DNA from: a virus
Virus record (IMG/VR): IMGVR_UViG_3300027733_000148
Span: 1 to 31,078 of that record
Reading direction: 5' to 3' (one strand)
DNA: 31,078 nucleotides
Position numbers and translations under genes: made by a program. The notes under the pieces are model-generated. The model was given only the letters and a program-made list of their open reading frames with translations. It was not told where the DNA came from and searched no databases. Positions 8,287-29,307 of the stretch are shown here, one piece after another; positions within the stretch are counted from its first letter, which is position 1; the number at the start of each line of letters is the position of its first letter.

Positions 8287-8300
8287 ATACTATTGTTTCG
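8287..8300 (-). promoter_or_regulatory. CAATAGTAT start-site element before the tube gene
   Basis: The coding strand reads CGAAACAATAGTAT immediately before ATG 8286. The CAATAGTAT part is identical to the element abutting ATG 11443, although the CCGC part is replaced by CGAAA. No Shine-Dalgarno sequence is seen. Confidence 0.4.
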
Positions 8301-8309
8301 GGGGTAAGG

Positions 8310-11041: not shown

Positions 11042-11443
11042 TTATTTGGAGGAAAAGAGGACTGCCTTATGCAGTTTGAAAAACGCACGACGTTCAGCGC
11101 CTGCAGGCATTGCGGCATATTGCTCGCAGATGGAACCGAGAGCGCCAGAAACGACAGGAGCGGCGACCGGGTCAACGCCAGAGGCGGCGAGGATGTTAGC
11201 GGCTTCGACGGAGCCAGTAGCCTTGGAGGCTTCCAGTTCAGCGTTCTTGGCGTTAGCCTCAGCGAGAGCGGCTTCGAGTTCCAGAATCTTCTGGGACTGG
11301 GCAGCGGACTCAACCTTGAGAGCGTCAAGCTCAGCAGAGACGTTAACGACCGAAGCCTCGACGGTCTTGCGGAGATCGTCGCGTTCGGCGGTCAGGGAAA
11401 GGACGGAGGCTTCAGCAGCCTTAGCGCGCTCTTCGATAGTCAT
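11042..11443 (-). CDS. Capsid scaffold-like coiled-coil protein
   Basis: A 133-aa protein whose first ~75 residues form an almost continuous Ala/Glu/Leu heptad coiled coil (ERAKAAEASVLSLTAERDDL onwards). A short linker and a basic C-terminal helix (GAERRAFFKLHKAVLF) follow. Coiled coil plus basic tail is the classic scaffold pattern, and the gene sits between the protease and the major capsid protein. The basic tail would bind capsid subunits, and the protease would clear the scaffold. The start ATG 11443 directly follows the CCGCAATAGTAT element. Confidence 0.75.
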   Translation of the reverse strand: MTIEERAKAAEASVLSLTAERDDLRKTVEASVVNVSAELDALKVESAAQSQKILELEAALAEANAKNAELEASKATGSVEAANILAASGVDPVAAPVVSGALGSICEQYAAMPAGAERRAFFKLHKAVLFSSK

Positions 11444-11456
11444 ATACTATTGCGGA
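11444..11456 (-). promoter_or_regulatory. CCGCAATAGTAT start-site element before the scaffold gene
   Basis: The coding strand reads TCCGCAATAGTAT directly abutting ATG 11443 and fills the whole gap after the protease stop. The element matches the ones before the genes at 14323 and 2766. Confidence 0.5.
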
Positions 11457-14075: not shown

Positions 14076-14323
14076 TAGAGATCAACACGCGAGGACCAGT
14101 TAATCTGGACAGAAGTATGAGCACCGCCATAGCGGGAACTATCGATACGGCTTAACGCGAAATTGATTTCCTGAATCCGGGCAGCAGGAGGCATCCCGAA
14201 TTGTTTATTTACCGAAGTGCCTGAATCACTGTAACTAGTGACAGCCTTGCCCAAGTCAGCAAGGGCCTCCGCTTTGTATTGCAGGAGGGTGTCTTCATCG
14301 ACGCCTACATAGATGCCAAGCAT
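14075..14323 (-). CDS. gpW-like head-tail joining protein
   Basis: An 82-aa protein between large terminase and portal, exactly where lambda has gene W. It has a helix (EDTLLQYKAEALADLGKAVT), a short beta-turn (SYSDSGTSVNKQFG) and a second helix (AARIQEINFALSRID), the helix-hairpin-helix layout of gpW, which closes the filled head before tail joining. The C-terminal extension (YGGAHTSVQINWSSRVDL) is longer than in lambda. It is preceded by the CCCCGCAATAGTT element right at its ATG and overlaps the portal start. Confidence 0.75.
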   Translation of the reverse strand: MLGIYVGVDEDTLLQYKAEALADLGKAVTSYSDSGTSVNKQFGMPPAARIQEINFALSRIDSSRYGGAHTSVQINWSSRVDL

Positions 14324-14336
14324 AACTATTGCGGGG
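14324..14336 (-). promoter_or_regulatory. CCCCGCAATAGTT start-site element before the gpW-like gene
   Basis: The coding strand reads CCCCGCAATAGTT directly abutting ATG 14323 and overlapping the last codons of the large-terminase gene. The core CCGCAATAGT is identical to that before the scaffold gene at 11443. Confidence 0.5.
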
Positions 14337-16155
14337 TTTGTAAGGTTTGAGGCTCATCCCTGCCTATCAGCCCCCATCGTGCGGCTATGAGCATACCGAG
14401 TAGCTCACAGTCAAGAGCGTGGTTATGCTTAACACCCTGACGCAGACGCCAGATAGGCTTCCCGGCTTCTTTTGTCCTGATCTCGGAATCGAGCTGGGCG
14501 ATGTAGTCAGGCAAGGCATCACGGGCAAAACTAAACACGCGGCGAGCTCTTGTGCCCCAGAATAAATCCTTGCCCGAGAGATTCGACCACACGACCAGCG
14601 TCGTGGGGTTTCGGACGCCCGGCACGTGAATAGCCGTGGGCGTGTTGTAGAACCGACGCACCGCATCACCGGCCTTTGTCTTGACGTTGAAATACTCCTG
14701 GCCTGAACCCTTAGCACACTGCCAGCCACGGGTAGCGCATTGCTTGTAGACCTCCTGCGTAGAATTACCGTCACCAGAGTCTACCATAACAAGCTGCGGA
14801 TGCACCCCATGCTTTGCCACTAAGGCATCTATTCCACTCCAATCTGTTAGGCCATCGGTGCTCATAACTTTTCCGAACCAGACTAGGCGGCTATGCCCTG
14901 TACGCGCCCACTGCCTAAGCACAACCCAAAGGTGGTCACCCTGGCAGTCGATAGCCATGGTAAGGAACTTAACCGAACCATCAGGCGCGTCGGCCTTGTC
15001 CACAATCTGGCCGCGTGGGCCGATGTAGGCCACGGCATCCCAAGGGTCTGCCATGGCGTAGTCCGAGGACTCGGTCGATACAACTAGTGATCCGGTTTCG
15101 TCTGACCAGGGCTGGGCCAAAAACTGATTTTTAAATATTTTGCGTGGGGTTATGTCGCCCATCTCGGCAACCTGCTTTGCCTTGATGGTATCCACGGCCA
15201 GAGACCCCCAGCTCGTTGACGCCAAAGCGTTGACGTGCAGGCCGACATACCCGGCCTTCTCGGCGTGGCCTGTAGCTACAAACCCAGCGCCGCGTTCGAC
15301 CTCGTTGCACGTCGTGCGGACCTCGTCGTTGTCCTCAAGCCGCGTCTTGCACTTCGAGCACTCGTAGGTCGTTCCATTCTGCACGGCCTCAAGGTCCCAG
15401 CCGTCGATGCCCTTAGCCCCTTCTGGGAATCTGATGTAATCCCATAGCCACGGTTGCCGATGCTGGCACGTTTCGACCGGGCAGATGAACATCCACTGAC
15501 GCTGGTCAGTCATCAGGTAGAACTTCCAGAACTCTGCGCCCTGTCCTTCGATGTCTCCTGGCTGGCTCTCGTACACCGCCTTCGACGCGAACGCCGCCGC
15601 CTTCAGTCGGCTCATGCTCATGGCGATCGCCCCATTAGGCCACTGCCAGATCTCCGAGCCTAGGACGTAGCGGACGTGCAGACTCTGCAGGTGCTTCTCG
15701 GTCGAGGCCGAGCGGTTGTGAATCAGGCATCCATCCGCAAACCGAAGCGTGCCTGACTTATCGTTGTCGTCGGCGCTCATCTGCGAGCGGATGTCAGCGA
15801 CCTGCTCGAACAGGGGCCGCAGCTCGTTCAGCGTAAACCCCTTGGCCTTGTCCTGCGAGTCAAGGTAGATAGCCATCGACGCACGGCGGTTTGCCATCAG
15901 GTAAGTTGCAATCAGTTTCAATGTCAGCGTCTTCCCGCAGCCGATGGCCCAGGGCATAAACATCCGGCTAGTCGTCGGCGCATTGAAAATCCGCACGGCT
16001 TCTGCAATCCACGGCCAACGCTTAGGATTGTACCCACCATCAAACACGCCAGCAGGAATCTTCTTAACATTCTCCTTCAAGTATGCGACCGGGTCGCTCA
16101 AGGCCGATGGCCTTACGACAGTCAGTCCTTCCTCAAACAGTTCCTTAGCGTTCAT
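14326..16155 (-). CDS. Large terminase subunit, GpA family
   Basis: A 609-aa packaging motor and headful/cos nuclease. The start is set at MNAKELF (16155), whose ATG overlaps the small-subunit stop (ATGA); an upstream in-frame start would overlap TerS heavily. An N-terminal ATPase carries Walker A-like WAIGCGKTL (about 69-77). The Walker-B zone (YVLGSEIW) has Glu but lacks a clean DE pair. Four cysteines (C225, C230, C266, C269) form a zinc-ribbon insertion typical of GpA. The C-terminal RNase H-like nuclease has acidic residues at AIDCQGD (about 403), VMVDSGDG (459) and HNHALDCEL (582). It pairs with the AT-hook TerS just upstream. Confidence 0.95.
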   Translation of the reverse strand: MNAKELFEEGLTVVRPSALSDPVAYLKENVKKIPAGVFDGGYNPKRWPWIAEAVRIFNAPTTSRMFMPWAIGCGKTLTLKLIATYLMANRRASMAIYLDSQDKAKGFTLNELRPLFEQVADIRSQMSADDNDKSGTLRFADGCLIHNRSASTEKHLQSLHVRYVLGSEIWQWPNGAIAMSMSRLKAAAFASKAVYESQPGDIEGQGAEFWKFYLMTDQRQWMFICPVETCQHRQPWLWDYIRFPEGAKGIDGWDLEAVQNGTTYECSKCKTRLEDNDEVRTTCNEVERGAGFVATGHAEKAGYVGLHVNALASTSWGSLAVDTIKAKQVAEMGDITPRKIFKNQFLAQPWSDETGSLVVSTESSDYAMADPWDAVAYIGPRGQIVDKADAPDGSVKFLTMAIDCQGDHLWVVLRQWARTGHSRLVWFGKVMSTDGLTDWSGIDALVAKHGVHPQLVMVDSGDGNSTQEVYKQCATRGWQCAKGSGQEYFNVKTKAGDAVRRFYNTPTAIHVPGVRNPTTLVVWSNLSGKDLFWGTRARRVFSFARDALPDYIAQLDSEIRTKEAGKPIWRLRQGVKHNHALDCELLGMLIAARWGLIGRDEPQTLQTPQ

Positions 16156-17535: not shown

Positions 17536-20199
17536 TTAGGACAGGAACTCAGAGCGAGGAATCCGTACCGCACGATGGGTCGAAGCCCCAAAACGGATGC
17601 TCGAAAGGTGCACGGCTCCCGGTACTCTTGCAAACTGATCCTTCCACTTGTCAGCCCAAGAAGTGTTCTCGAATAGAGTACGAAGAGCGGGGTGATGATT
17701 GGAGATACAGACCGTAGCGTCTTCAAGCTTAAGGCCTGAACGCATCAGGTTACTTCGGATGTTATCCGCGTCATCGACGGTGACATCGGTCGAGTAGTAA
17801 GCCTGCACCAGTTCGCCGATAGACCGGGTGTAGGTATGATCGCCTTGCTCAAAGCGGATAGACTTATCCAGCATCCAAGCCAGGGCACGGACTTCGTCTT
17901 GGTCGGCCTCGTCGGGCATGAAGCCATGCCAGTTCTGCTTCTCAACCCAAACGGTGGCATCATCAAGGGACAAGACTCGCGTTGAGGTAAGGGAGAAAGC
18001 ACCAGAGAGCAGCGCGCCCAACTGATCGCCGATACGCTGGTCACCTAGCTTGATGGCGACGGCCTTGGCAAATGTCCGGGCGTTCTCGGTGATCGCCATA
18101 GCGTAGGCGAGAGAGCGTGAGCGGATTCCCTCTGCATAGCCTGGTCGGGCTACAGTGTCGGCCCAGAGAGTCTTAAGGGCTTCGAAACGAGCCTGCCCAC
18201 CGTCAGTGTTGTCCTTACGGAGTTCAAGGGATGTTATGCGGCTAGTGTCGGCGCGCTGGTTAGCGGCCACACCGATGGAGGCGAAAGCAAAGCACGAGCG
18301 TATCTGATACTCCATGGCCTTGCCTGAGGCTGAACCCTTACCGATACCGGCTCCCGTCTCAGCTGACGCGGCACGGGCGAGTTCAAGGATGGACTGCATC
18401 CGGGCTTGGCCGCGCTTGTCTTCGGACTCGGCTTCATCGAACACGACAGGCAGAGCGTCGGAGCGTAGGCGTTGACGGATAAAGGCCTCAGTAGTCGCAG
18501 ACTGCACCGAAAGGGCTAGGCGGCCCACCAGAGGGTCGAGGATGTTATTCAGGAGCCACGTCTTACCAGAGCCAGACGGTCCGTTAACCCAGATATGGGG
18601 ACGCCAGCCTAGCACGCCGCAAATTGGGGCGATGACGCACCACCCAGCAAAGAACTTAGAGTAGATAGGTTCCTTCCAGTTCATCATATCGGTGAGGGTC
18701 ATGAGGCGTGCGGCCTCAGCATTGGATAACGGTTCAGCCTGATCGGCCTCGAGGCGCTGGCCTTGAGTGTATATCCACTTAGACTTGAAAGATGGAATAG
18801 AGCGTTCCTCGTTACCAATCAGGAGACGGTCGCCAGCGTGGAAGATAACTTGGGCTTCATCGACCCAACAGCCACGGCCACGGACTTTACGCGGGGCAAA
18901 GATGCCTTCGCGGTGGCTGGCTTGGATTAGAGCGTTAGCGGCGGCTTTCCAATCGGCTCCCTCACGACCGGGAAAGTGTGACTCCCACCAGTTAGCACCA
19001 GCGAGTCTGAGGAACGGCAAGTGTTTATGATCGTTAGCGGTGAGGCTGACAATCTGCTGAGAGGAGTCGGGTAGGTAAAAGTAAACGCCATCGTCATGAC
19101 CGAGCACTCGGAACGGCCAAGGGTCTTCCTGCACCGGGTCGGGCTCATGGAGGGGCTGAGCATCAAGGTTAGCGTAGTCAATAGCCTCAAGCACTTCGGG
19201 AGGGGGCGGAACTAGCGTAGATTGAGTAGTGCTAATCTCCGCATCCTTGCGGGGAATAGGCTCGCCTCTGATGTGAGCGCGTACCATGTCGGTAGTCCAA
19301 CCTTCGGCCTCAGCGTCGGCAAGGTCCCAGCCCTCGGCCACGTTAGCGGGAGGGGTGACGATGCGGACATCTGGTAGTTGCTTGCGGATTAGCTCGATAC
19401 ACTTGCGGCCCGGCTCGTCGGCATCAGGCCAGAACAAGACGCGACGACCAGCAAGGGACGACCAGTCGGCTAGGCTGACGGCCTTGGAGCCACCTGACCA
19501 GGTCGTGACGGTGAGGTTAGGTAGCAGACGGCTGGCGGCCTCGGCGGTCTTCTCGCCCTCAACAACCAGCACCCACTTGTTAGCGTCGGCGTGGACAACC
19601 TTCGGCAGATTGAAAAGCGGCCTAGGCTTGGCAAAGGACTTCCATCGCCACGACTGCTTGCCAGACACGTGCTCGCACCAAGTGATGGGTAGGACTTCCT
19701 TGGAGCCATCAGTTAGGTCGAATCTGCAGATCAGGCCGACGCGGTTACCTTCGGCGGTGAGATAAGGCCAAGTGGCAACAGGCTGGCCGTGCTTGTAGTG
19801 GTTAAGATCCGGCTCATGGCAACCGTCTGGAGCGTGGGGCAGAGGTTCCCACTCGGACGCAGCTGATGGCTTGGACTCATACTCAGCGCGCGGGGCGGTA
19901 GCAGAGGTAACGCCAAGGGATAAACGCTCGGCTAGTTCGCGGGCGGCTTCGCCTTGCTTACATCCCTTGATGGCAGCGAGCAGGGAGATAGGATCGGAGC
20001 CTTTATCGTCACCGGCGAAGTCGCACCATTTACCAGTAGTCAGATTGATTGAGAGGCTGGAGCCAGGTTCACCTCGGACTGAGCCGACCTTAAACTCATG
20101 GCCGTCTTTCTTGCCAGCGGGGAACCATTCACAGCAGAGGGATTCAAGGGAGCCAAGCGCGGCGGCATTGACGGTAGCGAAGTCGAGACGAGGAGCCAT
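17536..20199 (-). CDS. Primase-helicase (Toprim plus SF3/P4-like ATPase)
   Basis: An 887-aa replication protein. The start is placed at MAPRLDF (20199), preceded by TCCCGCAC; the longer frame upstream reads as non-coding. The N-terminal domain (about 1-95) resembles primase zinc-finger domains, with DFAGDDKGSDPISLL, but keeps only a few cysteines. A Toprim-like domain has VVEGEKTAEA (about 212-221) and WPDADEPG (257-264). The C-terminal helicase has Walker A NGPSGSGKT (539-547), Walker B VVFDEAE (about 585-591), and further motifs including ASIGVAANQRADTSR. It probably primes and unwinds at the origin. A 38-nt gap separates it from the VRR-NUC gene. The gene-free control region follows its stop. 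Confidence 0.88.
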   Translation of the reverse strand: MAPRLDFATVNAAALGSLESLCCEWFPAGKKDGHEFKVGSVRGEPGSSLSINLTTGKWCDFAGDDKGSDPISLLAAIKGCKQGEAARELAERLSLGVTSATAPRAEYESKPSAASEWEPLPHAPDGCHEPDLNHYKHGQPVATWPYLTAEGNRVGLICRFDLTDGSKEVLPITWCEHVSGKQSWRWKSFAKPRPLFNLPKVVHADANKWVLVVEGEKTAEAASRLLPNLTVTTWSGGSKAVSLADWSSLAGRRVLFWPDADEPGRKCIELIRKQLPDVRIVTPPANVAEGWDLADAEAEGWTTDMVRAHIRGEPIPRKDAEISTTQSTLVPPPPEVLEAIDYANLDAQPLHEPDPVQEDPWPFRVLGHDDGVYFYLPDSSQQIVSLTANDHKHLPFLRLAGANWWESHFPGREGADWKAAANALIQASHREGIFAPRKVRGRGCWVDEAQVIFHAGDRLLIGNEERSIPSFKSKWIYTQGQRLEADQAEPLSNAEAARLMTLTDMMNWKEPIYSKFFAGWCVIAPICGVLGWRPHIWVNGPSGSGKTWLLNNILDPLVGRLALSVQSATTEAFIRQRLRSDALPVVFDEAESEDKRGQARMQSILELARAASAETGAGIGKGSASGKAMEYQIRSCFAFASIGVAANQRADTSRITSLELRKDNTDGGQARFEALKTLWADTVARPGYAEGIRSRSLAYAMAITENARTFAKAVAIKLGDQRIGDQLGALLSGAFSLTSTRVLSLDDATVWVEKQNWHGFMPDEADQDEVRALAWMLDKSIRFEQGDHTYTRSIGELVQAYYSTDVTVDDADNIRSNLMRSGLKLEDATVCISNHHPALRTLFENTSWADKWKDQFARVPGAVHLSSIRFGASTHRAVRIPRSEFLS

Positions 20200-20202: not shown

Positions 20203-20210
20203 GTGCGGGA
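20203..20210 (-). promoter_or_regulatory. TCCCGCAC start-site element, primase-helicase
   Basis: The exact 8-mer on the coding strand lies 3 nt before ATG 20199, in a 38-nt gap with no Shine-Dalgarno sequence. It decides the choice of MAPRLDF as start. Confidence 0.6.
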
Positions 20211-20237
20211 TGGCCCAAGGTGTCGGCAGGGTTGCGG

Positions 20238-20582
20238 TCAGGCAACCAGAAACTGTACGTCCTCGACCGAGCGCGCGACTATGGCGATACCACCGGCCTT
20301 CAGGACAGCCGCCCGCCAAGTCTCCTGCTCTGGGGTTAGCCTGCCATTGGGGGCCTTAACCTCTACGGATAGGAACCGGGCAAACCTTTGGCCGACCATG
20401 TCAGGCGTGATCGTAAGCGTCTGCCAGCCAATTAGGTCAGCCGAGCCAGTGGTCAGGCCGTAGCGTATGACGCGGCCAGAGCGGGGGTCCTTGTATGCGC
20501 CGGAGTTATTGCGGAACATCCGAACGGCGGGACACTTACCCAGGGACAGTCGGATGTCCTGCTGGATAGCGGCTTCGCTCAT
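20238..20582 (-). CDS. VRR-NUC domain nuclease
   Basis: A 114-aa stand-alone VRR-NUC protein (PD-(D/E)xK superfamily). It shows the family signatures: N-terminal SEAAIQQDIRLSLG helix, FRNNSGAYKDPRSGRVIRYG, GSADLIGW with the catalytic Asp, FLSVEVKAP supplying E-x-K, and RLTPEQETWRAAVLKAGG. Such proteins cut structured DNA and in phages usually sit beside helicases. The ATG overlaps the helicase stop (ATGA), so the two are co-translated, which suggests resolving branched replication or recombination intermediates. All expected catalytic residues appear present. Confidence 0.93.
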   Translation of the reverse strand: MSEAAIQQDIRLSLGKCPAVRMFRNNSGAYKDPRSGRVIRYGLTTGSADLIGWQTLTITPDMVGQRFARFLSVEVKAPNGRLTPEQETWRAAVLKAGGIAIVARSVEDVQFLVA

Positions 20583-21952
20583 TTGCGTTGCCGTGCCTTG
20601 AACACGTTGTTGGCCCAGCCGTAAGGGTTCTTCATGCCTCTGGCTTTGCCTACGCGGATTAGGTCCTCAAGGGTCTGAGCAGTGCCCTGCTCCCGCTTAC
20701 GTCCTCGGATGGCCTCACGTGCCTTCAGTTCCTCTAGCTCGCCATCGACCATATCAGGGATGCGGTCTTTAATTTCGTAGACGTGCAAGCACTGCGGGCA
20801 GGCCGGGCTTGGGGTATGGACTGCATAACACTCCGGGCATTGGCGAGTGCTCTGTATGTCATCCTGTATGTTATTACGTACGCGTTTACGTACACCGTCG
20901 AGCGACCAGTCGCGGACCTCCTCGGCTAGTCCATGCCGTTTACAGTTGCCAACGTGGTCAAGGATGACGGCACGTTGCTTGCCCGGTGACGGACGCAGGA
21001 CGCGCCCAATCTGCTGAAGGTGCAGGGAGAGGGATGCCGTCGGCCTGAGCAGGATGGCCGTCGATACGCAGGGAAGGTCGAAGCCCTCTGAGACGATGTC
21101 CACGCTGACCAGCCCTTGCAGTGCTCCAGAGGACAAGTCGATGACTCGGCGCGCGCGCTCTTCTTTAGCGAGAGTACCGTCGATGACCTTGAACCTATAG
21201 CCTGCCGCGTTGAACGCCTGGGCAACGTGCTCAGCGTGTTTTATTCCTGTGCAGAATACAATGCACGGCTGGCCTTCGGCGTATTTGCGGTAGTGAATGA
21301 CAGCATCGCCGGTGATGGTCGGTCGGTCCATCCGCTCGGCTACCTCGGCACGGTTGTAATCCCCTGCCACCATGTGCACCCCTGTGAGGTCCACGGTCTT
21401 GGGGGCGTAATACACTGGTTTACATAAGTACCCCTGGTCTATGAGTTTTGTAACCTCTGGCCCACGGATCAGGTCGTCGAACACTTGGCCGAGGCCCTTG
21501 CCGTCGAGGCGTTGCGGAGTCGCGGTGACACCGAGCACGCGTGCGTCAGGATACTGAGCGAGCACCGATGCCCAAGCACCGGCGGTGGCGTGGTGTGCTT
21601 CGTCGATGACGATGAGGTCAGGAGCCATGACGCGGTCGAACCTACGGACGAGCGTCTGCACGCTGGCGATCTGCGTGAGGTGTGAGCGGTCGGGCGTCAT
21701 GCCTGAGGCGATAAGGCCGTGAGGCACGTCCATGGCATCGAGCGAGCGGTGGCACTGCTCCAGGAGTTCGGCACGGTGTACGAGCACCAGCGTGCGGTTG
21801 CCCTTGGCTGCAGCTGAGGCGGTGATATAGGAAAAGATGACGGTCTTCCCGGAGCCCGTAGGGGCGACCAGCAGGGGCCGCTTACGGCCTGAGCGGAAGG
21901 AGTCTCGGACCGCATCGACGGCGGCTTGCTGATAGGGACGGAGGTCGAACAC
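20579..21952 (-). CDS. DEAD/DEAH-box (SF2) helicase
   Basis: A 457-aa helicase in the RecG/UvsW-like SF2 style common in phages. It has LRPYQQAAVDAV (Q-like), Walker A APTGSGKT (30-37), TLVLVHRAELLEQ (motif Ia), DEAH (117-120), GVTATPQRLDG (motif III), CIVFCTGIKHAEHVAQ (IV), VDIVSEGFDLPC (V) and QQIGRVLRPSPGK (VI). Near residue 375 is a zinc ribbon, C-PEC and C-PQC. It starts at GTG 21952 directly abutting TCCCGCAC and opens the leftward block, divergent from the small-gene operon. It is likely an early replication or recombination helicase. Confidence 0.94.
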   Translation of the reverse strand: MFDLRPYQQAAVDAVRDSFRSGRKRPLLVAPTGSGKTVIFSYITASAAAKGNRTLVLVHRAELLEQCHRSLDAMDVPHGLIASGMTPDRSHLTQIASVQTLVRRFDRVMAPDLIVIDEAHHATAGAWASVLAQYPDARVLGVTATPQRLDGKGLGQVFDDLIRGPEVTKLIDQGYLCKPVYYAPKTVDLTGVHMVAGDYNRAEVAERMDRPTITGDAVIHYRKYAEGQPCIVFCTGIKHAEHVAQAFNAAGYRFKVIDGTLAKEERARRVIDLSSGALQGLVSVDIVSEGFDLPCVSTAILLRPTASLSLHLQQIGRVLRPSPGKQRAVILDHVGNCKRHGLAEEVRDWSLDGVRKRVRNNIQDDIQSTRQCPECYAVHTPSPACPQCLHVYEIKDRIPDMVDGELEELKAREAIRGRKREQGTAQTLEDLIRVGKARGMKNPYGWANNVFKARQRK

Positions 21953-21960
21953 GTGCGGGA
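21953..21960 (-). promoter_or_regulatory. TCCCGCAC start-site element, helicase
   Basis: The exact 8-mer directly abuts GTG 21952 with zero spacing. It supports the GTG over any downstream ATG. Confidence 0.6.
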
Positions 21961-22050
21961 AAGAGGCAGGTTAAAGGCGTTATAACTGGGGGGCAATATT
22001 TATAACGGTTTATGGTTTACGGTACTTGCAGATGGGGTAGGGTACTTACC
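21961..22050. promoter_or_regulatory. Divergent intergenic control region
   Basis: This AT-richer stretch lies between the helicase and the rightward operon. It contains the palindrome GTTATAAC (21979-21986), a second TTTATAACG (21999-22007), tandem GGTTTATGGTTTACGG and a repeated GGTACTT. Possible rightward promoter: TTTACG, 16 nt, TAGGGT. Possible leftward -10: TTATAA. Both are weak matches, but divergent promoters are expected here. Confidence 0.5.
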
Positions 22051-22058
22051 TCCCGCAC
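22051..22058 (+). promoter_or_regulatory. TCCCGCAC start-site element, first rightward gene
   Basis: The exact 8-mer on the + strand abuts ATG 22059 with zero spacing, mirroring the copy before the divergent helicase gene. Confidence 0.6.
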
Positions 22059-22247
22059 ATGAAAACTACTAAACCTACCGCCTATGATTTGAAACGCTTA
22101 CGCCTTCATATTGACCGACTCAATATCGCTCGCGTCGAATTATCACTATCCGGTCACATGACTGATGACCAGAGCTGTGATCTACTTGAAACTATCGATA
22201 TTCTTGAAGACCGTTTTATTGAACTCACTAACCTTCGTAATTCTTAA
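22059..22247 (+). CDS. Small helical protein, first gene of rightward operon
   Basis: A 62-aa protein I do not recognise. It is helical and charged (YDLKRLRLHIDRLNIARVEL, then CDLLETIDILEDRFIELT), suggesting two amphipathic helices and possibly dimerisation. It heads the rightward block after the divergent control region and directly follows a TCCCGCAC element. Position suggests an early-expressed protein acting on host or phage gene expression, but nothing in the sequence shows its target. Confidence 0.72.
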   Translation: MKTTKPTAYDLKRLRLHIDRLNIARVELSLSGHMTDDQSCDLLETIDILEDRFIELTNLRNS

Positions 22248-22248
22248 T

Positions 22249-22341
22249 ATGAAACTCCTCGCCTTCACCGTCCTGCTCACCCTGTTCATCTACTTTCTGG
22301 CCGATGGCCCGAGCCTGTTGGATATCCTGAATAACTATTAA
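22249..22341 (+). CDS. Very small membrane protein (30 aa)
   Basis: A 30-codon frame starting one base after the previous stop (TAATATG) and ending just before the next gene's leader. It encodes MKLLAFTVLLTLFIYFLADG and a short polar tail, one clear hydrophobic helix with a Lys at the N-terminus. Its exact fit in the gap and coherent membrane-protein composition support it as real. Role unknown; a membrane-acting early peptide is possible. Confidence 0.5.
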   Translation: MKLLAFTVLLTLFIYFLADGPSLLDILNNY

Positions 22342-22351
22342 TTTCCCACCC

Positions 22352-22618
22352 ATGCCTGACGCTAACTTTCAGTTCGTACAATCGGTTACCTTTGCCGGTC
22401 GAGTCATCCCGCTGACTAAGCCGATTGCCGCTTTCAACGCTCGCCGCCTTCAACGCATCCTCCCGGTGATTGCCGCGCTTAACGCCGCCGGCAAGTCTCA
22501 GGAGGAAGCCGCCAAGTTTCTTGGCACCACCGTTGGCACCCTACGCAAGTGGCTTGCCATCACTGACACGCCTTGGGTCAACCTTAAGCGCCGTGGCAAA
22601 TACAAGACCAATGCCTGA
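22352..22618 (+). CDS. Small helix-turn-helix protein
   Basis: An 88-aa protein with a helix-turn-helix near residues 45-70 (ALNAAGKSQEEAAKFLGTTVGTLRKWL): scaffold helix, turn at LGTT, recognition helix TVGTLRKWL. A beta-like N-terminus (NFQFVQSVTFAGRVIPLTK) and a basic C-terminus complete it. The start context is TTTCCCACCC immediately before the ATG, the CCCAC variant of the window's start element. Likely a DNA-binding regulator or anti-host factor in the early block. Confidence 0.72.
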   Translation: MPDANFQFVQSVTFAGRVIPLTKPIAAFNARRLQRILPVIAALNAAGKSQEEAAKFLGTTVGTLRKWLAITDTPWVNLKRRGKYKTNA

Positions 22619-22643
22619 TCCTTCCCACCGTTCCTTACTACCC

Positions 22644-22904
22644 ATGACTGACGCAGAAATAAAAGCATACAAGGTTCGTCTTTGCCGAGAAGCCAACCCG
22701 GAGAAATATTTAACCTATGCTAAAGAATGGCAGAAGGCTAACCGCGATAAATGTAAGGTTTACTTGCAACGTTATTACCAGAAAAACCGCAAAGTCCGAA
22801 TTGAAGTTGCCAGAAAATGGCAAGCGGCAAACCCAGAACGGTACAAGGCTATCCTTCAACGTGCGTATGCTAAGCGCAAGGCCCGCAAATCTATTCCCGC
22901 ATAA
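22644..22904 (+). CDS. Strongly basic repeat protein, HNH-accessory-like
   Basis: An 86-aa protein starting at MTDAEIKAY (22644), chosen because TTCCCACC lies in its leader and because longer in-frame readings overlap the previous gene in another frame. It is very rich in Lys, Arg, Tyr, Gln and Ala, with two NPE[KR]Y units (ANPEKYLTYAKEW and ANPERYKAILQRAY). This resembles basic linker repeats often fused upstream of phage HNH nucleases, but no HNH domain follows, so it is a stand-alone nucleic-acid-binding candidate. Confidence 0.66.
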   Translation: MTDAEIKAYKVRLCREANPEKYLTYAKEWQKANRDKCKVYLQRYYQKNRKVRIEVARKWQAANPERYKAILQRAYAKRKARKSIPA

Positions 22905-22908
22905 CCCC

Positions 22909-23163
22909 ATGAACATCATCCGACCCGACCGCCTCCCGACTCTCTGGTGGCTTAACCCCTGGCTAACCGTCCGCTACCTTCACCGGGCAGTCGGCGCCTT
23001 TAAGTCCTACGCCGATAAGGCCGACCGTTGCGTCGACCTGCAACAGGCCGTCATCAATGAGCAGTCCAAGGAGATTAAGTATCTGCGTCAGCGCAACGAT
23101 GACTTGAACGACGCCATCATCAAGGGTCACGCTATCAACCCAGACGCCGAGATCCATGAGTAA
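22909..23163 (+). CDS. Small coiled-coil protein
   Basis: An 84-aa protein from ATG 22909, 4 nt after the previous stop. The N-terminal part has a hydrophobic/aromatic patch (LPTLWWLNPWLTVRYLHR) that could lie on a membrane or bind a partner. The remainder is a coiled coil (DLQQAVINEQSKEIKYLRQRNDDL in outline). The end overlaps the next ATG by 8 nt. No family recognised; its placement suggests an early accessory protein. Confidence 0.66.
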   Translation: MNIIRPDRLPTLWWLNPWLTVRYLHRAVGAFKSYADKADRCVDLQQAVINEQSKEIKYLRQRNDDLNDAIIKGHAINPDAEIHE

Positions 23164-23371
23164 TCAATTATCACCTAAGCAAGTTGCTACGCGGTTCATG
23201 GCCTCTGAGGTTGAGCACGTGAACCGGCTCCTGCATACGCGTGACCTGTCAGTGGCTAAGGCTAAGCTGATGCTTATCGAAGCCGCCCATGAGGCAACTA
23301 AGCGTGCGGCTGAACCTTTAATTATTGAAACCGACATCAACGCAGGTCGCGCTTGGTTCAATATCCTATGA
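23156..23371 (+). CDS. Small helical protein (71 aa)
   Basis: A helical 71-aa protein (MSNQLSPKQVATRFMASEVE, then SVAKAKLMLIEAAHEATKRA). It overlaps both neighbours: its ATG lies inside the end of the coiled-coil gene, and its TGA overlaps the next ATG (ATGA). Tight overlap supports translation as part of one operon. No recognisable family or motif. Confidence 0.64.
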   Translation: MSNQLSPKQVATRFMASEVEHVNRLLHTRDLSVAKAKLMLIEAAHEATKRAAEPLIIETDINAGRAWFNIL

Positions 23372-23640
23372 GCGATTTTTACGAAGGCAGAATGATTCCG
23401 CTGAAGATTGCGGATCAGGCTATTATCTCTTGCAACAAGGAGATTGAAAAACTACAGGCTGAGAACGCCCGCCTCAAAGCCGAGGTTGTGCGGCTGACCA
23501 AGGCAGGGGATTTGCTTGCTGTTCATTACACTGCTTTAAGCAAATGCGTTACCCCAAACAATGCGAAGTCGGGTAGCATAAATGATTGGACATCTGTTAT
23601 TGACTGGAACGCCGCCAAGGAGGGCAAGGGCCAGCCATGA
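23368..23640 (+). CDS. Small coiled-coil protein (90 aa)
   Basis: The start is set at MSDFYEG, which overlaps the previous stop (ATGA); a frame opening 15 nt earlier also exists. Residues about 25-50 form a strong heptad coil (KEIEKLQAENARLKAEVVRL), followed by a polar tail. The pattern is typical of small phage proteins annotated as coiled-coil or DUF. Its stop overlaps the next start, so it is translated in tandem. Partner unknown. Confidence 0.66.
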   Translation: MSDFYEGRMIPLKIADQAIISCNKEIEKLQAENARLKAEVVRLTKAGDLLAVHYTALSKCVTPNNAKSGSINDWTSVIDWNAAKEGKGQP

Positions 23641-23990
23641 CTACCCCTTATAATTCTCACCACTCGGTCAACGATATGAACGACCTAATTGACAAGTACG
23701 TGCCTGTCCGGGAAGCCGCCCTTCAAGAGCACTACATGAAGGCCGCAGAGACTCGAGCGCTCCTTAAGCGCCTCGGGTGCTGGCCTGATAAACCAAGCCG
23801 ATCACCAGAGACGCGAGGCAAGAAACCCAAGAACGGCAAGCTTGCCAGTGAGATAGGCCGCGATGCTTACCACTGGGCGTACGCCAATAAAGCCACTTAC
23901 ACCGAAGCCGCTGAACGGTTCCGCGTCTCATCCGACGCTATTCACTCCTACCGACAATACCGCAAACTCCCTAAACTCCGTACTTTATAA
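23637..23990 (+). CDS. Small DNA-binding-like protein
   Basis: A 117-aa protein. The C-terminal half contains a helix-turn-helix-like segment (DAYHWAYANKATYTEAAERF, then RVSSDAIHSYRQYRKL) after a basic stretch (SRSPETRGKKPKNGKL). The N-terminal part is helical (NDLIDKYVPVREAALQEHYM). It overlaps the previous gene (ATGA) and ends 2 nt before the acidic 85-aa gene. Likely a small transcription or host-interaction factor. Confidence 0.66.
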   Translation: MTTPYNSHHSVNDMNDLIDKYVPVREAALQEHYMKAAETRALLKRLGCWPDKPSRSPETRGKKPKNGKLASEIGRDAYHWAYANKATYTEAAERFRVSSDAIHSYRQYRKLPKLRTL

Positions 23991-23992
23991 CC

Positions 23993-24250
23993 ATGGCTGA
24001 ACATGAATTAAACATCACCCACCGTGACAACGAGTACCAGGTCATCCTTGATGGCCCGGCTATGTACGTCGACGACTCCTTCGATCATGAGTTCGGGACT
24101 GAGCAACGCGGCCATTGGGAGCTCGACTGGGAGGAAACCGAAATCATCGCAGTGCTCGACGCAGAGGGGGCCGAGATTGATGCCGACGGCGTGCCCGGCC
24201 TCATCCTTGCCATACGTGATGCCGCCCAAGAACTAGAGATTGACGGCTAA
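23993..24250 (+). CDS. Highly acidic small protein, DNA-mimic candidate
   Basis: An 85-aa protein with about 24 Asp/Glu and only 3 Arg and no Lys, so strongly negative overall. Alternating charged strands (YQVILDGPAMYVDD, then HWELDWEETEIIAVLD) suggest a compact beta-rich fold. Extreme acidity and small size in an early operon recall DNA-mimic inhibitors such as Ocr-type or anti-CRISPR proteins, but no known family is recognised and the mimic role is inference. It follows ATG-proximal TAACC from the preceding stop. Confidence 0.68.
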   Translation: MAEHELNITHRDNEYQVILDGPAMYVDDSFDHEFGTEQRGHWELDWEETEIIAVLDAEGAEIDADGVPGLILAIRDAAQELEIDG

Positions 24251-24285
24251 CCCACCCAGAGTGACCGCCAAAGCCCTTTAACCCT

Positions 24286-24759
24286 ATGACCCTAATCCTA
24301 GCCCTATCAGCCGCCTTGCTCGTCTCTGAGGCCATCCCAGAGGCAGTCGTTCAGGCGGTCGAACAGGTCGAGTCCTCTGGCCGCGGCTCTAAGACCCCAA
24401 ACGGGGATGGGGGAAAGGCTATCGGATGCCTTCAGTGGCACTCTGCCGCGTGGTCCGACTGCTCGGCTGTACGGCTTAAGGCCGGGCTGGCCGTCTACCC
24501 TTACTCTGACGCCAAGGCCCCAATCAGAGCGCGCGAGTATGCTCGCACCTGGCTAACTGTCCTGAAGGTCAGGCTGTCTACGCAGTTAGGCAGACAGCCG
24601 TTTCCCGGTGAAGTCTGGCTGGCTTGGAATCTGGGGTGGAGTGGCTTTAAGCGCTACGGATTCCAGTGGGCAGACGTTCCTCCCGCTAAGTTTGCGAAGG
24701 CCCGACAGGTCAACACGTTGGCTTGGGGCTTGCTAAAGGAAGATCAGTCAGCACGTTAA
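24286..24759 (+). CDS. Lytic transglycosylase-like endolysin
   Basis: A 157-aa protein that would cleave peptidoglycan. A hydrophobic N-terminal segment (TLILALSAALLV) may be a signal-anchor or SAR helix. The fold signature follows: VVQAVEQVESSGRG with the catalytic Glu near residue 29, then GGKAIGCLQWHSAAW (the G-A-x-G-x-x-Q strand), a Tyr-rich helix region, and WLAWNLGWSGFKRYG. This matches the SLT/lysozyme-like superfamily. It is the last gene of the rightward block, 35 nt after the acidic gene, and is separated from the spanin/holin cassette, which is transcribed the other way. A hairpin terminator follows. Confidence 0.8.
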   Translation: MTLILALSAALLVSEAIPEAVVQAVEQVESSGRGSKTPNGDGGKAIGCLQWHSAAWSDCSAVRLKAGLAVYPYSDAKAPIRAREYARTWLTVLKVRLSTQLGRQPFPGEVWLAWNLGWSGFKRYGFQWADVPPAKFAKARQVNTLAWGLLKEDQSAR

Positions 24760-24785
24760 GAACTGAGGCCCGAGCAAAATCAATT

Positions 24786-24793
24786 GTGCGGGA
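24786..24793 (-). promoter_or_regulatory. Orphan TCCCGCAC element
   Basis: An exact copy of the start-site 8-mer lies in the 82-bp convergent gap on the leftward strand, with no plausible reading frame behind it. It is either a relic or a hint that the element has a role other than translation. Confidence 0.4.
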
Positions 24794-24819
24794 TCGCAAA
24801 TGAGGGCAGTTCGGGCTTC

Positions 24820-24841
24820 GGGCCATCCGTAAGGGTGGCCC
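24820..24841 (+). terminator. Hairpin terminator with GTAA tetraloop at the convergent point
   Basis: GGGCCATCC-GTAA-GGGTGGCCC forms a 9-bp stem (one G-T pair) with a GNRA-type loop, followed by TTACCGTTT. It ends the rightward block, and its other strand may also slow the leftward block, whose last gene stops at 24842. Confidence 0.75.
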
Positions 24842-25339
24842 TTACCGTTTACGCATGACCCGGTCTAGGTCGGATTTCTTATAGAAAGCGTTGAGGTGCA
24901 AGCCTATGATGCCGCGTGGGGTCTTCCAGTATTTAGGCTTAAGACTTGCCCTGGCTACTTTTGACCGGACGGCTGCTTCTGAAATCTCATGGGTAAAAAC
25001 ATAATCCACAATACGCACCCAGCCATTAGGAACCTTATCAGCCTGATAGTGAAATAAACCATCTGAAGCTTCTCTGATTGATTGGTAAGGTGCAATAGGC
25101 TTATAAACGTAAGCCTTATGGCATTGCCCGGTAGCGACCTTAAACTTATGGGCTTTACGTTCAAGGATACCGCGACGGAACAGATCATAAGCCCTTGACG
25201 ACGCATTACGGGTATGAGCCATATCTAATTCGGTACGGATTTGCTCTACGGTGAAGAACCCGGCTGGTGGAGGGGCTATGCTCTGGTCATTATTGAGTTC
25301 ACGCATAATGCGCTCAATGATAGCGGCTGTTTTAATCAT
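24842..25339 (-). CDS. Winged-helix-like DNA-binding protein
   Basis: A 165-aa protein, the last gene of the leftward block. The N-terminal half has a winged-helix feel (FFTVEQIRTELDMAHTRNAS, SRAYDLFRRGILERKAHKFK), as in small phage replication initiators or regulators. The C-terminal half is basic (VARASLKPKYWKTPRGIIG, FYKKSDLDRVMRKR). It overlaps the phosphoesterase stop by ATGA. Function unknown; DNA binding is a modest inference. Confidence 0.62.
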   Translation of the reverse strand: MIKTAAIIERIMRELNNDQSIAPPPAGFFTVEQIRTELDMAHTRNASSRAYDLFRRGILERKAHKFKVATGQCHKAYVYKPIAPYQSIREASDGLFHYQADKVPNGWVRIVDYVFTHEISEAAVRSKVARASLKPKYWKTPRGIIGLHLNAFYKKSDLDRVMRKR

Positions 25340-26097
25340 ACGCTAATTCTCCAAGGTTGACCGGCTAGTTCCTGCGGGTGAACGTACAAGGTAGGGATAA
25401 CAAGGTCATCGCAATACTCGCCATAACAGATAGCCTGACCCCACGAAAATGATTTCCTGCGCCCATTTGCATAATCCATGCAGGCCATTCGCGTAAGCGT
25501 GCCGACATTGATGCCAATGGGACCATCGTCGCGTCGTCCTTTTGCGATGCCAGGTGAATGAGTATGCCCGAAGATGACCACTGAGACACCGCCTTTACAA
25601 TACATCTCGGCCATATCTCGGCAGGCGTTCTCGTTGTAAATGGAGCCATGGGTAATCAGGCCGTTGCCAATGCGGGAGCCTTCCCAGATTCCCCGGTAAG
25701 GGATCTGCTTAGCTTTTAACTTAAGGCAATGCTGCTGTATCTTATTAATCAATAGCCTAGCACATTCAGACACGACCTCGTTAGTGCACTGAGCCAATCG
25801 GAACAAGCGCGCCTCATGGTTACCATCATGCACGACTAGTTCTAGGTCTTTGTAGGCTTTCAGCTGCTCAAGGAACGCCAGGCCCTCATCAATGTCAGGG
25901 GCCAGCGGGTCGCCTTCGCCTTTGCCGCCACCCATCAAGGGGGATAGGTCTGTATAGTCCCCGGCATGGTCGAAGCGATGTGGACGGAAAGCCTTAATAA
26001 AATCAGTCACCCCTTTCTGGGCAGATGGGTCGATAAAATGTCCATGCGAGCAAGATACTACCGCAAATCGCTTCCACTTACGGGTGATATTACTCAC
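25336..26097 (-). CDS. Metallophosphoesterase
   Basis: A 253-aa calcineurin-like phosphoesterase. Motifs in order: SCSHGH (15-20), HAGDYTD (44-50), DGNHEAR (91-97), LITHGS (about 148-152) and FGHTHS (176-181). The first motif is normally D-x-H, but Asp is replaced by Cys here, so one metal ligand is changed. Phages use such enzymes on nucleic acids or nucleotides. It lies between the dNMP kinase and the winged-helix-like gene, overlapping both by 4 nt, so it is probably in nucleotide or DNA metabolism. It could also dephosphorylate host signals. The substrate cannot be told from sequence. Confidence 0.88.
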   Translation of the reverse strand: MSNITRKWKRFAVVSCSHGHFIDPSAQKGVTDFIKAFRPHRFDHAGDYTDLSPLMGGGKGEGDPLAPDIDEGLAFLEQLKAYKDLELVVHDGNHEARLFRLAQCTNEVVSECARLLINKIQQHCLKLKAKQIPYRGIWEGSRIGNGLITHGSIYNENACRDMAEMYCKGGVSVVIFGHTHSPGIAKGRRDDGPIGINVGTLTRMACMDYANGRRKSFSWGQAICYGEYCDDLVIPTLYVHPQELAGQPWRISV

Positions 26098-26714
26098 CGG
26101 TATAGGCTCATTGATTGAGTGAACTTACGAGCCCATTGGCTGATGAGCTCAACCGACTTATCTCCAAAGCAAACTTGAAGGGCATTGTCCCTAGTGAAGT
26201 ATCCCTTTGAAGCCATGAGGCCGATTGACTCTGCTTCCTCATTGTTAGCAGGTATATTGAACTGACGCTCAATGTAGATAGGGACATAAGACCAGCCGCG
26301 CTTAATGCATAAGGCCTCAAGCTTGTGATACTCGTTCGAGTACCGGAGGTCTGGCACAATGACTACGGAACCGGCCGATCCAGAGTCCAGCAGGGTATCG
26401 TCTGCCCAGGTGTTAATACTCTCCACTACTTTATCTACCCAGACGTTAGGGTTTTGCCTTCGGCAATATTCGCCATAAGCCACAAGCAATGGTCGAAGTG
26501 CTGCCTTTTTTGCAGTATCCTCCGTAAATACGTCAACGGAAACTCCTGCGTCATCAAGCGATGCTTGTACGGATTCCTTAAGGGCATCAGCAAACTTCAT
26601 TATGATGACCGAGTATTCAGGCTCATCTTTAGCAAGATGGTCGAAGATGGCATTTGCCAACGTATCCTTTCCTGCCCTTGCAAATCCCGCGATGGGGATA
26701 ATCACGTGCTTCAT
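26094..26714 (-). CDS. Deoxynucleoside monophosphate kinase
   Basis: A 206-aa P-loop kinase with Walker A GFARAGKDT (10-18), KFADALKES (the usual conserved F-A-x-x-L-K strand), a YGEYCRRQNPNVWVDKV segment, and VIVPDLRYSNEY, the 'D-x-R-x-x-N-E' box of phage T4-type dNMP kinases. It would convert dNMPs toward dNDPs to supply replication. The start at ATG 26714 follows an AAGTAAAGTCC leader. It overlaps the phosphoesterase start (ATGA) and comes after the recT terminator, so it may need readthrough or its own promoter. Confidence 0.9.
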   Translation of the reverse strand: MKHVIIPIAGFARAGKDTLANAIFDHLAKDEPEYSVIIMKFADALKESVQASLDDAGVSVDVFTEDTAKKAALRPLLVAYGEYCRRQNPNVWVDKVVESINTWADDTLLDSGSAGSVVIVPDLRYSNEYHKLEALCIKRGWSYVPIYIERQFNIPANNEEAESIGLMASKGYFTRDNALQVCFGDKSVELISQWARKFTQSMSLYR

Positions 26715-26759
26715 GGACTTTACTTTCTGTTACCGCATCTGCACCTATGCAAACAATAA

Positions 26760-26783
26760 GGCCGACCCCTTACGAGATCGGCC
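26760..26783 (-). terminator. Terminator after recT with GTAA loop
   Basis: On the leftward strand GGCCGATCTC-GTAA-GGGGTCGGCC forms an 10-11-bp stem with two G-T pairs, followed by TTATTGTTT. It lies between recT and the dNMP kinase and shares the GTAA loop with the hairpin at 24820. Confidence 0.8.
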
Positions 26784-26809
26784 CGGCTACACGGCACTCC
26801 TGCGTCAGC

Positions 26810-27595
26810 CTAAATATCAATCGGCTCGTCGGCGGTAGCGACGGCCTCTGGCTCTACGGCCTTGGCCTTCTTCACGGCTTCCTTGATGGCCTCAGCTGCA
26901 GGCTGGACTGGCTGGCCTTCAACGGTTCGATGACCGTACTCGGCCTCGTTGTCTTTATGGATGGCTTCCTGCACGTCACGCGGCAAACGCGGAAGCCATT
27001 TAGCAAGGCGCTTAAAGGCGGTCTTCTTCCACATCTCCATTGGGTAAGTTGCCCAAGGACCTGACGCACCAGAACGGCTTGCCTTACGGATGGCCTCGAC
27101 CTCGGCCTTGCTCATCTGAATGGCGGCAGTCTCACCGTCCTTGAAGCGAACCATGGCGTAGACCGCATAAGGTTCTCCACGATCCTTGGATAAATCCACG
27201 ACGTGCTCCTCGACCTTGCCAAGATTGAATCGGTACTTGTCGGCGTTGCATACGATGTCGGCGTGGATGTGAGCCACTTCGCCGGAGCGCATGACGAGCG
27301 CAAGGATGCCCTTGTAGTCGAACTGCAGGGTAGCGTCATTGCCATAGGGGATAAGGTGGGCGTGATGGCCGTCTGGCATCAAGCCCCATTGGGCGGCTTG
27401 CAGGATGACCGAGGCCACGCTGGATGGGGTGCAATCCCACAGCTTAGGGTTCTTGTTACAGGCCGTGATAACGCAGCGCATAAAGCGGCTTGCGTCGTCG
27501 GCGTTAGGCAAAGCCTTCGCAACCTGCTCTTGCAGGGACTGCGAGCGGACAAGCTCGATGGTGTTCTTCGGTTGGAGTGCGGGTGTTGTGCTCAT
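26810..27595 (-). CDS. recT: RecT-family single-strand annealing protein
   Basis: A 261-aa annealing protein that pairs complementary single strands made by the exonuclease. RecT features: FMRCVITACNKNPKLWDCTP, a SVASVILQAAQWGLMPDG core, HLIPYGNDATLQFDYKGIL, and VYAMVRFKDGETA. The C-terminus (EAVKKAKAVEPEAVATADEP) is a charged tail. The gene follows the exonuclease by 11 nt and starts after TTCCCACC just upstream of the ATG. The pair is the classic RecE/RecT arrangement and suggests recombination-dependent replication or concatemer formation. Confidence 0.96.
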   Translation of the reverse strand: MSTTPALQPKNTIELVRSQSLQEQVAKALPNADDASRFMRCVITACNKNPKLWDCTPSSVASVILQAAQWGLMPDGHHAHLIPYGNDATLQFDYKGILALVMRSGEVAHIHADIVCNADKYRFNLGKVEEHVVDLSKDRGEPYAVYAMVRFKDGETAAIQMSKAEVEAIRKASRSGASGPWATYPMEMWKKTAFKRLAKWLPRLPRDVQEAIHKDNEAEYGHRTVEGQPVQPAAEAIKEAVKKAKAVEPEAVATADEPIDI

Positions 27596-27606
27596 GGTGG
27601 GAAGGG

Positions 27607-28395
27607 TTAGACGTTAAACTTGGAGAGGTCCACTTCGATAACACCGGGGCCGGTCTTGTGAGGCCACGCGGCTGGGTCGATACCAATCGTGGTCTGGTAA
27701 GCGGCCATCAGGTCGAGTCCGTTGCGGTAGCGACGGCGTCCGACTTCGATATCGGCCTCGGTCATCACGAACACTTGGACGAAAATCTCTGGGGCGTCCT
27801 TGCCCTCGATAGCGATGAAGGCAAAGCCGATGGGCTTGCGCTTGGTCATGGCCTCGATGCCGTCTTGATAGATGGCGGCCTGCCTGTCGTATCCAAACTC
27901 CCAGCAACTGCGCCTAAAAGCAAAGTGGTCTATTGATGGGGTTGTTTTTATGTCTACGAGCAGACCGTCTTCCCGGTAGCGATCAGGTCGGCAGCGCATC
28001 GGGATGCCGGTGGCCTCGTCAGTCCAGAAGTAGGAAGCTTCATTTACACCTTCGCCAGCCAGGAGCGACGCGGCCTCAGTGTCCTGCTGCACAGCGGCGG
28101 CGATGGAAGTCAGTTGCACGTACTCGTCATGGCTCACAATCTCTTTGCCAATGCTTGCCATTTCAAACTCCTCTTCGCGGGCCTTGGCTCCCTTGCCCTT
28201 GTCGAGACCCTCGGGCATCACGGCCCACTCGGAGCCGACGAGCTGAGGCTCAAGGATGATAGTATGGACAAGCGAACCCCAACGGAGTGAGGGGGTCTTC
28301 TTGCGGGGCGTGTTCATGAGCCGGGGAGACTCAAGGAAGCGGGACAGTTTGGAGTTACTGACCGCCGAGCTGGCGTGGTATTCTTTATTATTCAT
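27607..28395 (-). CDS. RecE-like PD-(D/E)xK exonuclease
   Basis: A 262-aa exonuclease that resects double-strand ends to load RecT. The start is set at MNNKEYHASS (28395), which directly follows a TCCCGCAC element; an upstream frame of 61 codons lies in the ligase region and is rejected. Family marks: SNSKLSRFLESPR with the Ser-rich helix, LRWGSLVHTIILEP (the conserved G-x-x-H-x-x-x-L-E), RCRPDRYREDGLLVDIKTT with the D-(x)n-D-x-K catalytic residues, and GYDRQAAIYQDG. Partner: RecT immediately downstream. Confidence 0.94.
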   Translation of the reverse strand: MNNKEYHASSAVSNSKLSRFLESPRLMNTPRKKTPSLRWGSLVHTIILEPQLVGSEWAVMPEGLDKGKGAKAREEEFEMASIGKEIVSHDEYVQLTSIAAAVQQDTEAASLLAGEGVNEASYFWTDEATGIPMRCRPDRYREDGLLVDIKTTPSIDHFAFRRSCWEFGYDRQAAIYQDGIEAMTKRKPIGFAFIAIEGKDAPEIFVQVFVMTEADIEVGRRRYRNGLDLMAAYQTTIGIDPAAWPHKTGPGVIEVDLSKFNV

Positions 28396-28403
28396 GTGCG
28401 GGA
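28396..28403 (-). promoter_or_regulatory. TCCCGCAC start-site element, exonuclease
   Basis: The exact 8-mer directly abuts ATG 28395, preceded by TTTT. It sits in the 13-nt gap after the ligase stop and decides the MNNKEYH start. Confidence 0.6.
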
Positions 28404-28408
28404 AAAAC

Positions 28409-29296
28409 TTACTTGTCGCCTCGGATGCGAGGGTGACGCATGGAGCCATCGGGCGTCTTGCTCTGGAAGGTAACCTCAAGCCAGGAGCCGATGACGGTAT
28501 CGCGGTTCTCCCAGATTGAGGAGCGTTGCTCGTCGGTAAAGCCACCGCCCACACGCACCAAGCGTCCGTTATTCTCAACGACTACGTGGCCCATCGTGCC
28601 AGCCAGACGGCCTTTGCCCTCATGCACTGATACCACCGGGCAATCCTCGGCGTCAACGGCCTTGACCTTAAGCCATGCAGTCGAGCGCTTACCCTGCGTA
28701 TAAGGGGCTTCAGTGTCCTTGACCATCGCACCCTCGAAACCCTGAGAGACGAAGCGACGGAAGGCATCGTTAGGCGAGATGCCCATGAAAGACTCTACCA
28801 ACTTAATCTTGTCAGAGTAAGTGAAGCCAGACATCAGTTTGCGGCGCTCAAAGTATGATCCGATATCGTCGGGCACATCAAGCAACCATAGCCTAGCGTC
28901 CGTAGCAGGTTCGCTAGAGCGAATGTCGCCAACAGAATCGTAGAAATCAGCGCCGGATACAGCCTCGCAATCAAAGGTGAACACGCCGTGCTTGCTGGCA
29001 GTGTCAGCGAACCATGCACCAAGGTGCTCGATGGACGGCAGCGGATTGCCGTTTCGAGTCTTCATGCCGACTGCCAAAGACTCTCGACAGACTTCAACAA
29101 TCACGCGGACGCCGTCAATCTTCGGCTCGACTGCGTAAGAATCTGGCAATATTCCCTTATATGGGCGAGCCAGCATAGCCGGTGACAGCGGAGCCTTAGG
29201 CTCCTTGCGTGGGCCGACGCGGAAGTTCGGCTGACTTTCAACCATGTTAAAGATGAACGCGTACAGGTCAGCGTTCGAGTCGGAGGATGTGCTCAT
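28409..29296 (-). CDS. ATP-dependent DNA ligase
   Basis: A 295-aa ligase starting at MSTSSDSN (29296), chosen over an 11-codon longer frame because TCCCGCAC sits 3 nt before it. The catalytic Lys lies in EPKIDGVR (K59-G62). Other motifs: TFDCEAV (motif III-like), FEGAMVKD (IV) and STAWLKVKAVD (V), with a C-terminal OB domain (VHEGKGRLAGTMGHVV to HPRIRGDK). Small size matches compact phage ligases. It would seal nicks in replicated or recombined DNA. It opens the ligase-exo-recT group after the lysis cassette. Confidence 0.95.
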   Translation of the reverse strand: MSTSSDSNADLYAFIFNMVESQPNFRVGPRKEPKAPLSPAMLARPYKGILPDSYAVEPKIDGVRVIVEVCRESLAVGMKTRNGNPLPSIEHLGAWFADTASKHGVFTFDCEAVSGADFYDSVGDIRSSEPATDARLWLLDVPDDIGSYFERRKLMSGFTYSDKIKLVESFMGISPNDAFRRFVSQGFEGAMVKDTEAPYTQGKRSTAWLKVKAVDAEDCPVVSVHEGKGRLAGTMGHVVVENNGRLVRVGGGFTDEQRSSIWENRDTVIGSWLEVTFQSKTPDGSMRHPRIRGDK

Positions 29297-29299
29297 GTT

Positions 29300-29307
29300 G
29301 TGCGGGA
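29300..29307 (-). promoter_or_regulatory. TCCCGCAC start-site element, ligase
   Basis: The exact 8-mer lies 3 nt upstream of ATG 29296 on the coding strand. It is part of a 117-nt gene-free leader that also holds a promoter candidate. Confidence 0.6.

Follow-up and report, generated by a model that had tools for sequence, protein, structure and literature searches.

Repeated word at the starts of replication genes

The question raised by this locus is why the same eight-nucleotide word, TCCCGCAC, stands at the starts of several phage genes, and what might recognize it there. The window, i.e. the whole stretch of DNA analyzed here, is a virus record of 31,078 bases from IMG/VR. Five exact copies of the word are located at gene starts, as follows.

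20203..20210, minus strand: exact copy of the word, 3 nt before the ATG of the primase gene (17536-20199)
21953..21960, minus strand: exact copy, 0 nt before the GTG of the helicase gene (20579-21952)
22051..22058, plus strand: exact copy, 0 nt before the ATG of the first rightward gene (22059-22247)
28396..28403, minus strand: exact copy, 0 nt before the ATG of the gene for a RecE/exonuclease VIII-type exonuclease (27607-28395)
29300..29307, minus strand: exact copy, 3 nt before the ATG of the gene for an ATP-dependent DNA ligase (28409-29296)

These coordinates and offsets (0, 0, 0, 3 and 3 nt) agree in every case with those of the first-pass annotation, made from the sequence alone. The gene names (DNA helicase, primase, exonuclease VIII, ATP-dependent ligase and RecT) are upheld by PHROGs. 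The earlier statements that the word marks genes of the replication/early class (the helicase, the first rightward gene, the exonuclease, the primase and the ligase), that overlapping (ATGA) genes lack it, and that it is not a Shine-Dalgarno (SD) sequence hold as well.

The window contains seven exact copies of TCCCGCAC versus 1.06 expected by chance, in accordance with the earlier estimate of about one chance copy, and none of 100 dinucleotide shuffles has seven or more. The set of all possible ORF starts proved uninformative as a control, being dominated by spurious starts, and curated starts were used instead. The 8-mer is common to five of the 39 curated start regions, while the maximum observed in 3000 simulation runs (39 starts, 14 nt each, same dinucleotide content) is three.

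The full count adds two copies that had been missed previously, at 8549 (plus strand) and at 24786 (minus strand). The former is antisense inside a coding ORF and absent from relatives, and thus was rejected as a chance occurrence. The latter lies in a convergent intergenic region, at no gene start, and is considered below. The shorter CCCGCAC in the RecT gene (27577-27584, minus strand), tried as a sixth target, was also rejected: it covers codons 5-7 (Thr-Pro-Ala), is kept in only 12 of 23 relatives, and is probably coding.

Conservation in related phages

Close relatives of this phage are numerous in IMG/VR, and together they make up a family of uncultured phages from fresh water. In the phage family, the word is kept at all distinct helicase starts (12/12), all exonuclease starts (27/27) and all ligase starts (29/29). 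Among the primase starts, 13 of 14 have it, the single exception (relative L273) being CCCGCAT, where pairing with the hairpin loop described below is still possible via a G.U pair. Rightward genes of the relatives carry the word before one to three of them, with the spacing of 0-4 nt. Where the exonuclease is replaced by a homologue with 53-54% identity, the word is still present.

The surroundings of the word vary. The distance to the start codon ranges from 0 to 5 nt overall (0, 3 or 4 nt for the ligase, 3 or 5 nt for the primase), and the sequence upstream of the word differs among relatives. The exonuclease copy lies within an operon, 10-20 nt behind the stop codons of differing upstream genes. 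As the word remains constant while both its flanks and its spacing change, it resembles a binding or pairing site in mRNA rather than a promoter or a fixed ribosome context.

In one relative (L247:4288-4724), two extra genes are found between the ligase and the exonuclease, both with CCCCCCGCAC directly before the ATG, as if the newcomers had been recruited to the same control.

The same data bear on two readings at the level of DNA. The word could be a transcription-start or phage promoter signature yielding leaderless mRNAs, in line with its location immediately before start codons. We find this hardly credible, since no conserved upstream promoter partner accompanies the word, and since the word follows upstream stops by 10-20 nt in operons whose upstream gene differs. 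Alternatively, it could be an operator bound by a phage transcription factor at first genes, as suggested by the divergent region 21953-22058, where both starts have it, and by a weak HTH match of R2 (22352-22618). An operator seems very unlikely, however, given that the word is always in the sense orientation relative to the gene and 0-5 nt from the start codon, that it also occurs within operons directly after exchanged upstream genes, and that the intergenic copy is situated in a folded RNA element.

Probable host and its translation starts

The probable host, judging by sequence matches, belongs to Verrucomicrobiota (Opitutia). The terminase is 96% identical to one in an Opitutia MAG (Tous-C10FEB), and Verrucomicrobia phage P8625 and an Akkermansia phage are among the nearest isolates (approximately 21% for the terminase); this assignment is based on both observations. 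A second genome match for the terminase, 80% in an Aurantimicrobium MAG, is more likely a binning error.

In 348 kb of the Opitutia MAG, containing 233 long ORFs, SD sequences precede 11.6% of starts compared to 8.6% in a control stretch, that is, there is little excess, and C is preferred at positions -1 and -2. In 21 genomes of the host family, TCCCGCACATG exceeds the reversed control only modestly, with little enrichment before ATG. CCCGCAC is upstream of none of the 233 long ORFs, which upholds the phage-specificity of the word. The C-rich non-SD start is a host habit, and it accounts for CCCACC at 22352 and 27595, interpreted in the first-pass annotation as a weaker variant of the word; these are a separate thing and reflect how genes of the probable host ordinarily start, which does not hold for the word itself.

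These observations allow one to assess the word as a non-SD initiation enhancer, pairing with 16S rRNA or contacted by the ribosome. Both the phage family and the probable host do without SD sequences and favour C-rich sequence before ATG, as such an enhancer would suppose. Still, the word is not in use in the probable host (0/233 ORFs), which makes a general enhancer very unlikely, the more so as only a single functional class of the phage's genes has the word and its spacing is variable.

A search for Hfq (PF17209) in the probable host family gave no match in 21 genomes (G021-G041), with positive controls.

Conserved hairpin element

The minus-strand copy at 24786 is the only one that is kept in relatives away from a gene start. 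It is present in 15 of 15 relatives that hold the region, inside an invariant 16-mer UUGUGCGGGAUCGCAA. Scanning IMG/VR with this 16-mer yields family members at the same place and a few unrelated chance matches. On the plus strand, this copy forms the apical part of a double hairpin of about 80 nt, in which H1 abuts H2, downstream of the last gene of the rightward operon.

24286..24759, plus strand: 157-aa gene that closes the rightward operon; its 3' UTR would hold H1 and H2
24765..24819, plus strand: hairpin H1, part of the candidate antisense RNA, with an 11-bp outer stem, an internal loop, an inner stem UUGUG/CGCAA and a hexaloop CGGGAU (24789-24794)
24820..24841, plus strand: hairpin H2, resembling a terminator: stem GGGCCAUCC-GUAA-GGGUGGCCC, capped by a GNRA loop and followed by a weak U-rich tail

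The 157-aa gene ends about 5-6 nt upstream of H1; its product has no PHROG or Pfam match. No Rfam matches above the gathering score and no tRNA matches are found in the window.

H1 is predicted in 18 of 18 relatives. Its outer stem comprises 11 bp (9 bp in one subgroup of relatives), and its inner 16 nt (UUGUGCGGGAUCGCAA, with the hexaloop CGGGAU) do not vary. Positions 24786-24793 of the plus strand, within H1, read GUGCGGGA, which is complementary to the target word, and hence the plus-strand RNA of the element carries the complement of the word, not the word itself.

The choice of strand is supported by several features of the stems. The H1 outer stem is retained through G.U/A-U/G-C exchanges, on the plus strand only, and H2 shows compensatory changes (G-C to A-U and C-G to G-C) with the loops GCAA, GUAA or GAAA, these GNRA loops being found on the plus strand. 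Across 15 distinct sequences, 36 G.U pairs and not a single mismatch occur in the outer stem and H2, and each of these pairs would become an A.C mismatch on the minus strand. Moreover, the folds are more stable on the plus strand in all 18 sequences (mean -45.2 versus -34.8 kcal/mol on the minus strand). As the stem pairing is clean only on the plus strand, and the plus strand is also the more stable one, the hairpins belong to a plus-strand RNA. The strand is read here from the outer stems and H2, whose sole role could be that of a terminator, the invariant core being strand-neutral by itself.

Hairpins of the H2 type precede T-runs in many other phages, as the IMG/VR scan demonstrated, and H2 looks like a generic terminator. 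Its U-tract is weak, and the consensus scan for terminators does not call it.

Complementarity between the hairpin and gene starts

The H1 loop together with the 5' half of the inner stem reads UUGUGCGGGAU. This segment is exactly complementary to AUCCCGCACAA before the ligase gene and to (A)UCCCGCAC at the remaining starts. In particular, AUCCCGCAC(AA) finds its complement in the hexaloop CGGGAU and the 5' stem UUGUG, and at the ligase start the pairing can be extended to 11 nt, AUCCCGCACAA.

When the hybridization of this RNA segment was calculated for all 39 start regions, the five targets occupied ranks 1-5, with the mean of -20.0 kcal/mol. None of 300 shuffled segments, each scored with its own best five starts, matched the result of the real one. 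The seed and the target sites are kept together throughout the family. The hairpin, its complementarity to the word, the conservation of both, and the preferential pairing with these starts are established computationally.

No co-variation between the loop and the targets is seen, the loop being invariant in the family and the sister genera with homologous replication genes having neither the word nor the hairpin; a relative with an altered seed was not found. In particular, sister genera G017, G019 and G042 have no word and no matching loop. The same is true for helicase homologues at 47-62% identity and for phages with a ligase at 46% identity. Scanning IMG/VR with H2 for changed loops returned generic terminators of many unrelated phages.

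Late module and sister groups

Four late genes, with starts on the minus strand (2449-2800, 7909-8320, 11042-11480 and 14075-14360), share a different upstream block, AACCYTACC-N6..8-GCAATAGTAT directly before the ATG. It is kept in the family and is recognizable in G042 and L337. Such an arrangement in two blocks is suggestive of a late promoter or leader.

In G042 (L265, L266), the terminase is 67% identical and the late module is kept, and the early module is unrelated, with no ligase, exonuclease or helicase of the type seen here; early and late modules are exchanged as blocks. In a large sister group (L308-L363), a ligase at 46-48% is encoded antisense within the structural module and has its own conserved leader TTGACG...GTTCCACCRATG.

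Proposed regulon

The word is probably a shared address for a phage antisense RNA of the 3'-UTR type, predicted from sequence to pair across the start regions of replication and recombination genes. Such an RNA would come from the 3'-terminal part of the rightward operon (24765-24841, plus strand), with H1 followed by the terminator-like H2. It would pair in trans with the mRNA starts of the helicase, the primase, the exonuclease and the ligase, as well as with the gene or genes that open the rightward operon from which it derives. The duplex, spanning about -11 to -1, would block the binding of the 30S subunit and lower initiation. Repression is the likely outcome, since the bases immediately preceding the start codon would be occupied by the pairing. 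The replication/recombination set would then be shut off when transcription reaches the end of the rightward operon. We infer in this scheme a separate or processed RNA molecule, its pairing in the cell, and the repressive sign and the timing of the effect.

Given the negative Hfq search in the family of the probable host, the RNA would have to work without this protein, and a GC-rich loop presented in a stem would suit Hfq-free pairing.

The main rival to an antisense RNA is an RNA-binding protein, of the phage or of the host, that would recognize YCCCGCAC near starts and repress or activate translation of replication genes. The model for it is RegA of phage T4, a protein translational repressor that acts at many early and replication gene starts with a loose sequence preference. 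A regulator of this type would produce the same pattern of sites, namely multi-gene, start-proximal, strand-oriented and variably spaced, and the minus-strand copy at 24786 can also form a small hairpin, UGCG-AUCC-CGCA. On the other hand, it would leave unexplained the plus-strand fold of the intergenic element, which displays the complement of the word. Furthermore, no such regulator is recognized by PHROGs or Pfam among the scanned proteins, several small ones of which have no match of any kind. We consider a protein of this kind unlikely, and the antisense RNA remains the preferred reading. Among the four possibilities named in the first-pass annotation, a binding site comes closest, but its best-supported partner is an RNA and not a protein; a transcription-start signature or 5' leader, and a general initiation enhancer, are unlikely.

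In its full form the proposal, which we slightly favour, is an Hfq-independent regulon where one invariant loop would address an 8-nt word repeated at nearly all replication and recombination gene starts. As an RNA analogue of T4 RegA, it would take a Verrucomicrobiota phage from replication to late functions, with new genes joining by gaining the word. If true, this would show how phages coordinate gene sets post-transcriptionally without a regulator protein, in a non-SD phylum with no detected Hfq. As the loop and the targets are known base by base, the system is ready for a compensatory-mutation test.

Comparison with known systems

Similar to T4 RegA, the candidate RNA would be one regulator for many early and replication gene starts, but it differs in relying on a strict word of 7-8 nt, the complement of which resides in a conserved RNA loop. 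The bacterial sRNA CpxQ is derived from a 3' UTR, being an mRNA 3' end with a terminator hairpin. The candidate would have a similar composition, an mRNA 3' end and a terminator-like hairpin, but it is phage-borne, and its seed is in an apical hexaloop rather than in a single-stranded 5' end.

Phage small RNAs known so far are mostly single-target and come largely from Enterobacteria and Vibrio. They include sar of P22, antisense to ant; OOP, directed against cII; PreS, directed against the host dnaN; and VpdS (PMC12197685). As proposed for the candidate, P22 sar is a phage-encoded small RNA that hinders translation initiation by pairing with an mRNA of the phage (PMC12197685), but it is cis-encoded and has one target, whereas the candidate would act in trans on at least five separate starts via an 8-nt word. 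PreS of Lambda and VpdS of VP882 are likewise phage-encoded trans-acting RNAs with a short pairing region (PMC12197685). However, PreS targets the host dnaN, and both bind Hfq, whereas the candidate is predicted to target replication genes of the phage itself, and the family of the probable host yielded no Hfq match. What sets the candidate apart from the known phage sRNAs is the number of own-phage targets per short word, the seed in an apical hexaloop, and the apparent absence of Hfq.
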